From positions 1-49,469 of the forward strand of contig QBYD01000008.1 in the NCBI GenBank assembly GCA_003282975.1: a stretch of DNA of 49,469 nt, read 5' to 3'. This DNA comes from Pelagibacteraceae bacterium AG-325-C10. Lineage in GTDB: Bacteria; Pseudomonadota; Alphaproteobacteria; Pelagibacterales; Pelagibacteraceae. A program made the position numbers and the translations under genes. Numbering within the stretch: position 1 is the stretch's first letter; each line of letters opens with the position of its first letter. Shown piece by piece: positions 44,811-48,118 of the stretch. The notes beneath the pieces are model-generated. The model was not told where the DNA came from. It did no database searches and worked only from the letters and a program-made list of their open reading frames with translations.

Positions 44811-45266
44811 ATGATCACCATCGAAGATTTAAAAAAAAAACAGTCTGAAACCTCTAGATTAATTGGATTAGACCTTGGCTCAAAAAGAATTGGCGTATCA
44901 ATTTGTGATGAAAATCAATCTATAGCCACACCTTTTAAAACTATAATTAAGACTAATACTAATGAATTAATTGATGAACTTAAAAAACTTATTGAAGAAT
45001 ACAATATTAAAGGAATTGTCATAGGTCATCCTATCAATATGGATGGAACATTAGGCAGATCTTCTCAATCAGTAAATGATGTTTCTAACAACATAGATAA
45101 AGCAATCGATATTGATGTTTGTCTTTGGGACGAAAGACTTTCTACAGTTGGAGCATTTAATTTGTCTAATCAACTAGATGTAAATGTAAGTAAAAGGGAA
45201 AAAAATATTGATCAAAACGCTGCTGCTTTCATACTTCAAGGAGCAATAGATTTTTTAAAAAATTAA
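44811..45266 (+). CDS. ruvX: Holliday junction resolvase-like protein RuvX (YqgF family)
   Basis: RNase H-fold nuclease family implicated in pre-16S rRNA 5' processing. The 151 residues have GLDLGSKRIGVSICDE (about 19-34), GIVIGHPINMDGTLG and the late DERLSTVGAFN and DQNAAAFILQGAIDFL. The acidic D21 and D-E-R motif are present. The start region contains an unbroken run of ten A (44831-44840, codons 7-10). First gene of the run ruvX-pyrB-pyrC'-plsY-topA. Confidence 0.93.
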   Translation: MITIEDLKKKQSETSRLIGLDLGSKRIGVSICDENQSIATPFKTIIKTNTNELIDELKKLIEEYNIKGIVIGHPINMDGTLGRSSQSVNDVSNNIDKAIDIDVCLWDERLSTVGAFNLSNQLDVNVSKREKNIDQNAAAFILQGAIDFLKN

Positions 45267-45308: not shown

Positions 45309-46250
45309 ATGGCATCTAAATCAAACAAAGCTATTAAAATTTCTCAAAAACATTTACTGGGTATTCAAGATTTATCAATTAATGACGTTAATTTGATTTT
45401 AGATGAATCTCAGAAATTCATAAAACTTAACCAAAGTAAAAACAAAAGATTAAATGTTCTAAACGGAAAAACACAAATTAATCTTTTTTTTGAACCTTCG
45501 ACTAGGACACAAAGTTCATTTGAATTGGCAGGAAAAAGATTGGGTGCAGATGTAATGTCTATGAACATGGGTAATTCAGCAATTAAAAAAGGTGAGACAT
45601 TGATTGATACAGCAATGACTTTGAATGCAATGCATCCTGATATGATTGTAATAAGACACCAAGACTCAGGTGCGTGTAATCTTTTATCCCAAAAAGTAAA
45701 TTGTGCGGTATTAAATGCGGGAGATGGAAGACGAGAACACCCTACTCAAGCATTACTAGATGCTTTAACAATAATTAATAGAAAAAATAAAATTCAGGGG
45801 TTAAGAATTGCAATTTGTGGAGATATTCTTCATTCAAGAGTAGCTAGATCTAATATTTATTTATTAACTATGTTAGGTGCTGAAGTAAATATTGTAGCAC
45901 CATCCAATCTTATGCCAAAAGAAATTGAAAAATTTGGAGTAAATACTTTTACCGATATGAAAAAAGGACTTAAGGATTGTGATATTGTGATGATGTTAAG
46001 ACTTCAAAATGAAAGAATGACCAGTTCATTTTTATCATCAAATCGAGAATATTATGAATATTATGGTTTAACACCCGACAAGCTAGATCATGCAAAACAA
46101 GATGCAATTATAATGCATCCCGGTCCAATGAATAGAGGAATTGAAATTGATACAAGATTAGCTGACGATATAAATAAAAGTGTAATTAAAGAACAAGTTG
46201 AACTAGGTGTGGCTGTTAGAATGGCGTGTTTAAAAATTTTTTGTGAGTAA
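45309..46250 (+). CDS. pyrB: aspartate carbamoyltransferase, catalytic subunit
   Basis: Forms carbamoyl-aspartate in pyrimidine synthesis. The 313 residues have the carbamoyl-phosphate signature [15 protein letters not shown] (about 56-70), [11 protein letters not shown], the catalytic [15 protein letters not shown] (about 138-152) and [10 protein letters not shown]. The stop is followed directly by the pyrC' ATG, indicating co-translation. No regulatory subunit pyrI is present. With pyrC' lacking metal ligands, this probably forms a PyrB-PyrC' complex as in Pseudomonas. Confidence 0.97.
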
Positions 46251-47537
46251 ATGAAAAAACAATATTTTATAAATGCAAATATTATAGATCCTCATAATTC
46301 TATTAATGAAAATGGAGGTTTAATAGTTAGTGAAGATGGAAAAATTGAAGCTATAGGTAAAAAAGTAAATGTAAATAATTTACCCACCAGGGAAAAACCT
46401 GTCGATTTAAAAGGAAAATATTTAATTCCTGGTATTGTTGATATGAGAGTTTTTGTGGGTGAGCCAGGGTTTGAGTATAAAGAAAATTTTAGAACCCTAA
46501 GTAATGCAGCATTATCAGGAGGTGTTACATCGGTTGTGACCATGCCAAATACAAATCCAATAATAGATAATGTTTCAATTGTTGATTTCTTAAAAAGAAG
46601 AGGTAGAGATAAATCTAAAATTAATATATTCCCTTGTGCATCTCTCACACAAAATATCGAAGGGACCAACATGACAGAATTTGGATTGTTGGCAAGAAAA
46701 GGAATAATAGCTTTTACTGATGGTGTTAAAACAATCCAAAATACAAGCTTAATGTCTAAAATAATGAATTCTGCAAAAGATTTGGATTGTTTAATAATGC
46801 AACATGCAGAAGATTATCATCTTTCTAAGAATGGAATGATTAATTCTGGAATAATTGCAACAAAACTTGGGCTATCAGGCATACCAGACATTGCGGAAAG
46901 AATAATAATTGAAAGGGACTTATCGTTACTTGAGAAAAATAAATGCAGATATCACATTTCTCAACTTTCATCAGCGAAATCGGTTGAAGTAATTAAAGAG
47001 AGGAAAAATGATATTAAATTTACTTGTGGAGTATCGGTAAACAATCTTTCATTAAATGAGAATGATATTGGTGATTTTAAAACCTTCTTAAAATTATCAC
47101 CACCACTTAGAAAAGAGGAAGATAGAGAAGCATTAGTGCAAGGATTAAAAGACAAAACTATTGATGTAATTGTCTCAGATCATAAACCTGAAGATGAAGA
47201 GTCGAAAAGATTAACTTTTTCACAGGCTGCGACTGGAGCATCTGGAATTGAAACATTATTATCACTAAGCCTAGAATTATACCATAATGGTTCAGTCAAA
47301 CTTGAAACCATAATTCAAGCATTAACATCAAATCCTGCAAAAATTCTTAGAATAAACAAAGGAAATCTTACAATAGGAAATGATGCAGATTTTTGCATTA
47401 TAGATTTAGATAAACCATGGATTGTAAAAAAAGAAAATTTAATTTCAAAATCAAAAAATACTTCTATAGAAGATAAAAAATTACAGGGTAAAGTTACTAA
47501 TACCTTTGTAAAAGGTAAGGAATTATTTAAAGTATAA
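46251..47537 (+). CDS. dihydroorotase homologue lacking the HxH metal ligands (PyrC'-type, probably non-catalytic)
   Basis: A 428-residue amidohydrolase-fold protein of the long class I dihydroorotase type, immediately after pyrB. In active enzymes the barrel opens with D-x-H-V-H-L-R-x-PGF. Here it reads DMRVFVGEPGF, with R66 and F68 where the two metal-binding histidines belong. Other altered sites: HISQ (235-238) for HISH and VSVNN (261-265) for the usual V-x-P-HH. H185 and D310 remain. This is the pattern of PyrC', an inactive partner needed for PyrB assembly in Pseudomonas (family knowledge). A functional dihydroorotase is expected elsewhere in the genome. Confidence 0.9.
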   Translation: MKKQYFINANIIDPHNSINENGGLIVSEDGKIEAIGKKVNVNNLPTREKPVDLKGKYLIPGIVDMRVFVGEPGFEYKENFRTLSNAALSGGVTSVVTMPNTNPIIDNVSIVDFLKRRGRDKSKINIFPCASLTQNIEGTNMTEFGLLARKGIIAFTDGVKTIQNTSLMSKIMNSAKDLDCLIMQHAEDYHLSKNGMINSGIIATKLGLSGIPDIAERIIIERDLSLLEKNKCRYHISQLSSAKSVEVIKERKNDIKFTCGVSVNNLSLNENDIGDFKTFLKLSPPLRKEEDREALVQGLKDKTIDVIVSDHKPEDEESKRLTFSQAATGASGIETLLSLSLELYHNGSVKLETIIQALTSNPAKILRINKGNLTIGNDADFCIIDLDKPWIVKKENLISKSKNTSIEDKKLQGKVTNTFVKGKELFKV

Positions 47538-47539
47538 CA

Positions 47540-48118
47540 ATGGAATATTTAATTGTTGGAATAATTTCATATCTAATGGGCTCCATACCATTTGGATACA
47601 TTTTAACAAAATTTTTTTTAAAACAAGATATCAGACAAATTGGATCTGGTAATATCGGAGCTACTAATGCATTAAGAACAGGAAATAAATTAATAGGATA
47701 TTCTACATTAATCTTGGATATAGCTAAGGCAATAATTCCTGTTATTTATGTCAAAATAAATTATCCAGAACTTATATATATTGCATCGTTATGTGCCTTT
47801 TTAGGACATGTGTTTCCCATATGGCTTAAATTCAAAGGAGGTAAAGGTGTTGCAACATATGTGGGAATTTTATTTTCAATAAATATAATATTAGGAGTCA
47901 TCTTTGTTTTAAGTTGGGGAATAATATTTTTGATCTTTAAATACTCCTCTTTGTCATCAATAATTGGTTCTTTATCAATTCCGATTTACTTGATTATTAC
48001 TGGTCAGATCACAGATGTTGTTTTTTTTGGAATAATGTTCATTTTGATCTTTTACACTCATAGAGAAAATATTAAACGACTTAAAAATAAAGAAGAAAAT
48101 AAGACTAAAATTTATTAA
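47540..48118 (+). CDS. plsY: glycerol-3-phosphate acyltransferase PlsY
   Basis: Inner-membrane enzyme transferring acyl groups from acyl-phosphate (made by PlsX, also in this window) to glycerol 3-phosphate. The 192 residues have about five helices and the three conserved loops: SIPFGYILTK, GSGNIGATNALRTG (about 33-46) and FKGGKGVAT (about 92-100), and later HRENIKRL. It starts 2 bases after pyrC' ends. The dprA gene that usually follows plsY in alphaproteobacteria is absent, with topA next. Confidence 0.96.
   Translation: MEYLIVGIISYLMGSIPFGYILTKFFLKQDIRQIGSGNIGATNALRTGNKLIGYSTLILDIAKAIIPVIYVKINYPELIYIASLCAFLGHVFPIWLKFKGGKGVATYVGILFSINIILGVIFVLSWGIIFLIFKYSSLSSIIGSLSIPIYLIITGQITDVVFFGIMFILIFYTHRENIKRLKNKEENKTKIY

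Follow-up and report, generated by a model that had tools for sequence, protein, structure and literature searches.

The gene directly following pyrB in this SAR11 (Pelagibacteraceae) genome, here called pyrX, very probably encodes a catalytically dead subunit with a dihydroorotase (DHOase) fold, the partner that PyrB needs for its assembly in a class A2 aspartate carbamoyltransferase (ATCase), with the DHOase reaction being performed by a separate enzyme of the PRK09060 type. Family models call PyrX a dihydroorotase in one of the ocean's most abundant bacterial groups; the proper reading would be that PyrX is an ATCase partner and that a 434-aa paralogue is the enzyme. Our literature search found no paper connecting Pelagibacter with dihydroorotase.

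The pyrX gene and its active-site losses

The window, meaning the whole stretch of 49,469 nucleotides analyzed, carries pyrX within the conserved gene order ruvX-pyrB-pyrX-plsY-topA. The open reading frame was confirmed, with an ATG start, at exactly 46251-47537, its first base lying directly after the pyrB stop.

44811-45266, + strand: ruvX (YqgF), lying upstream in the conserved order
45309-46250, + strand: pyrB, ATCase catalytic chain of 313 aa, with a stop codon immediately before the start of pyrX
46251-47537, + strand: pyrX (pyrC'), putative pseudo-dihydroorotase, 428 aa (open reading frame, family profiles, alignment, predicted fold)
47540-48118, + strand: plsY, which follows pyrX in the conserved order

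In a family profile search the product matches dihydroorotase families across almost its full length. It scores 363.7 bits against NCBIfam pyrC_multi (TIGR00857), above the curated cut-off of 279 bits, a match that points to homology and says nothing on activity. The top match in the NCBIfam library is the PRK09059 dihydroorotase (NF006558), though at 529.1 bits this falls below the curated cut-off of 645 bits.

The nearest solved relative of PyrX by sequence is the Aquifex aeolicus DHOase, and alignment to this enzyme served as the reference for the residue comparison. We take Aquifex R65, N95, N278, and H309 to be the substrate-binding positions of type I DHOases. The single catalytic (alpha) zinc of the Aquifex enzyme is held by H61, H63, and D153, the metal-free enzyme is inactive and the beta-site histidines are dispensable (PMC3880350). 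All three alpha-zinc ligands are replaced in PyrX (H61 by R66, H63 by F68, and D153 by G158), as are a beta-site histidine (H232 by Q238, HIQH to HISQ) and three of the substrate residues (R65 by G70, N278 by S283, and H309 by E314). Retained are H180, D305, and N95, which correspond to H185, D310, and N100 in PyrX, and the kept H185 and D310 may allow residual binding of some ligand. The following codons were placed by alignment.

46446-46454, + strand: R66-V67-F68, replacing the HxH zinc ligands
46458-46460, + strand: G70, replacing the substrate-binding Arg (Aquifex R65)
46722-46724, + strand: G158, replacing the alpha-zinc ligand Asp (Aquifex D153)
46962-46964, + strand: Q238, replacing the beta-site His (Aquifex H232)
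47190-47192, + strand: E314, replacing the substrate-binding His (Aquifex H309)

The first-pass annotation had reported that the metal-binding HxH pair was gone, and this holds well beyond the window, with R66, F68, and G70 present in 110/110 SAR11 loci (the window's own counted, and with two locus sets that may overlap) and the other replacements in all 109 loci that cover those sites. Its claim of further lost histidines is borne out for HISQ, but what it read as HH to NN is a single H to N change in the Aquifex alignment (N265; NPNHL to SVNNL). It was also right that the predicted fold is intact and that other ligands remain (H185 and D310), but it overlooked the loss of D153 to G158 as well as the substrate residue losses at G70, S283, and E314. 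A sequencing error or strain oddity is ruled out by the identical residues throughout the SAR11 loci (110/110). A missing HxH is not diagnostic by itself, since the corresponding motif reads Q-T-H in the genome's own intact paralogue and Q-V-H in the solved DHOase 2gwn.

The Aquifex DHOase is activated by ATCase, and PyrX too could still be a working DHOase with unusual ligands, for example one that is active only when bound to PyrB. The intact predicted fold, the retention of H185, D310, and N100 and the dispensability of the beta-site histidines in Aquifex (PMC3880350) are in keeping with such activity. We nonetheless consider it highly improbable, given that the three Aquifex alpha-zinc ligands are all gone when the metal-free Aquifex enzyme is inactive (PMC3880350), that three substrate residues have gone as well, and that the genome holds another DHOase gene whose active site is conserved.

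Maintenance of pyrX and the second dihydroorotase

Missing catalytic residues could also mark a decaying pseudogene, a reading to which we give practically no weight. Compared with ten SAR11 relatives, pyrX shows a dN/dS of 0.02-0.04, near the pyrB value; these figures are rough as dS is mostly >1, with the closest pair (dS 0.36) giving a dN/dS of 0.04. No SAR11 copy has an internal stop in its frame, and the fold is predicted confidently by AlphaFold2 (pLDDT 94, pTM 0.93). The top solved structural matches of the model, effectively tied, are the Aquifex DHOase as solved together with ATCase and the Bacillus anthracis DHOase, with Z of 58-59 and an rmsd of 1.5-1.6 Å across about 420 residues. 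Since the changes are identical across SAR11, the dN/dS is low and the predicted fold is intact, PyrX is a maintained pseudoenzyme under strong purifying selection rather than a gene in decay.

The window's genome, which is 80% complete, holds one further amidohydrolase-family gene.

L001:1357-2661: PRK09060-type DHOase, 434 aa, scoring above the PRK09060 cut-off

Active-site residues are retained in 28/28 PRK09060-type rows, among which some genes are represented by two loci; these residues are the second zinc His, a Lys, the beta-site His pair, the Asp, and the substrate residues. The conserved Lys is presumably the carboxylated lysine position of such enzymes. A Gln stands in place of the first HxH His in 26 of the 28 rows. 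The complete genomes G012 and G143 have exactly two amidohydrolase-family genes each, which in G012 are pyrX and the PRK09060-type gene. On the best reading of these sequences it would be the 434-aa paralogue, not PyrX, that performs the DHOase reaction.

The first-pass annotation had expected a second, roughly 345-residue DHOase gene elsewhere in the genome. A second gene is indeed present, but it is of the 434-residue PRK09060 type; no E. coli-type (345-residue) PyrC scores above cut-off in the window's genome or in near-complete relatives, and weak E. coli-type matches land in the PRK09060-type gene. We agree with its warning that a plain dihydroorotase annotation would be misleading. There is no need for its suggestion of a partial external supply of pyrimidines. 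The window's genome contains pyrF, and pyrD is present in the near-complete relatives G012, G143, and G037, though it was not found in the incomplete (80%) assembly of the window's genome. A cultured SAR11 strain has been grown on pyruvate, glycine, methionine, and vitamins, and as the listed additions include no nucleobase a working pyrimidine pathway is to be expected (PMC11452348).

Linkage to pyrB and known ATCase partners

We surveyed a sample of 144 alphaproteobacterial genomes, in which 100 copies of the pyrB-linked type were read. The alpha zinc site is lost in 93 of these copies and kept in seven, with a Q at the first His counted as kept and the rows being related rather than independent. 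The seven copies with a kept site are at L209, L227, L239, L240, L224, L238, and L188; in three genomes with an intact pyrB-linked DHOase no other DHOase was found. Linkage is tight, as the 96 alphaproteobacterial loci with both pyrB and a DHOase-type gene have the two on the same strand in every case and separated by ≤400 bases in 93. True pyrB was found in none of the same-genus genomes lacking pyrX, which fits incomplete assemblies.

E. coli-type PyrC was compared in 12 genomes with a single hit of the pyrB-linked type and none of the PRK09060 type. It is present in 9/9 genomes with a dead pyrB-linked copy and absent in 3/3 with an intact one (Fisher p 0.0045, n = 12, relatedness not controlled), the absence in these three resting on two genome searches.

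Similar arrangements have been described in other bacteria and in fungi. The pseudo-DHO of Pseudomonas aeruginosa (pDHO) is inactive yet required for ATCase activity, and Pseudomonas pseudo-DHO and PyrB form a dodecamer (PMC7053772). By published description, this class A2 protein (PyrC', pDHO; ~45 kDa) is like SAR11 PyrX an inactive DHOase homologue partnering PyrB, the SAR11 side of the likeness being known from sequence. In Sinorhizobium meliloti, also one of the Alphaproteobacteria, smc01361 (PyrX) adjoins pyrB, its disruption leads to pyrimidine auxotrophy and the genome has a separate essential PyrC (PMC5929573). This matches the SAR11 arrangement as described, although the role of smc01361 is supported by genetics and that of SAR11 pyrX is predicted from its sequence. 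The class A1 ATCase-DHOase of Aquifex shares its fold with PyrX (3d6n and 4bjh are among the closest solved structures), but its DHOase is active with zinc on H61/H63/D153, all lost in SAR11 PyrX. In fungal Ura2, too, ATCase carries an inactive DHOase domain (PMC7053772), which by description is fused into one polypeptide, unlike the separate SAR11 PyrX.

What was found in SAR11 corresponds to a class A2 partner, with zinc and substrate residues lost, the gene linked to pyrB and a separate DHOase gene in the genome, and not to an active class A1 subunit, whose ligands H61/H63/D153 PyrX lacks. A structural partner of PyrB is the best-supported reading of this pseudo-DHOase, and by analogy SAR11 PyrX is an additional member of the already known class A2 arrangement. 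From these homologues we infer that PyrX is inactive, that it forms a complex with PyrB and that PyrB requires it. PyrX would be made from the gene abutting pyrB and, by analogy with Pseudomonas, would dimerise, hold a pair of PyrB trimers together as a 6+6 dodecamer and allow PyrB to form an active trimer, with the DHOase step carried out by the separate PRK09060-type enzyme. No PyrI regulatory chain was found in the seven genomes searched, three f2 genera (see below) among them, and PyrI in place of PyrX as the partner of PyrB is ruled out on this basis.

PyrX might instead act as an amidohydrolase on a new substrate, or sense a small molecule (e.g., a nucleotide) for ATCase, going beyond scaffolding. 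We regard this as unlikely, if somewhat less so than residual DHOase activity. The replacing residues are fixed throughout SAR11, and in the class as a whole Arg at the H61 position is usually accompanied by Asp at the D305 position (57/73 vs. 8/27), which suggests a site reshaped rather than emptied. However, the residues differ widely among families of the class, a poor fit with one conserved new substrate, and the P. aeruginosa work speaks against true allosteric control (PMC7053772). In the window, R66 (46446-46448) and D310 (47178-47180) perhaps form a salt bridge replacing the zinc.

PyrB in families without pyrX

The need of PyrB for PyrX is not universal in Alphaproteobacteria, since a sister family (f2) within the SAR11 order and other families of the class have PyrB without PyrX. 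We see about an even chance that ATCase ceased to depend on PyrX, perhaps more than once, in Alphaproteobacteria with small genomes, f2 among them, with free-standing PyrB marked by the loss of hydrophobic residues (e.g., L125) that would contact PyrX. If so, the SAR11 order would hold both states side by side, PyrX-dependent and free PyrB, and a comparison of f2 with SAR11 would be a natural experiment on an enzyme becoming dependent on a dead partner and then being freed again.

In f2, pyrX is absent from 24/24 genomes and pyrB is present in 21, at 52-56% identity. All six f2 loci read (L172-L177, from G037, G038, G045, G039, G050, and G054) keep ruvX-pyrB-plsY-topA, with pyrX missing between pyrB and plsY. 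Eight more alphaproteobacterial families (L265-L272) have pyrB without pyrX, with plsY adjoining pyrB in seven; the median genome size is 1.75 Mb for these eight vs. 3.7 Mb for pyrX-bearing genomes. A xenologous PyrB in f2 was set aside on the conserved gene order and an AU test in which a single clade of f2 and SAR11 PyrB was not rejected (p 0.52), although a quick tree places f2 PyrB on long branches together with the other PyrBs that lack a pyrX partner gene.

All 108 pyrX-linked PyrB rows carry Leu, Met, or Phe at position 125; none of the 14 pyrX-less rows has Leu there, and most have Glu or Lys. This makes L125 a candidate PyrX contact, which we offer as a lead for the interface and not as a test, because the sites were chosen after viewing the data and PyrBs without pyrX may have a common history. 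The residues M103, F241, F251, and V38, chosen in the same way, likewise give way to polar ones in the pyrX-less rows.
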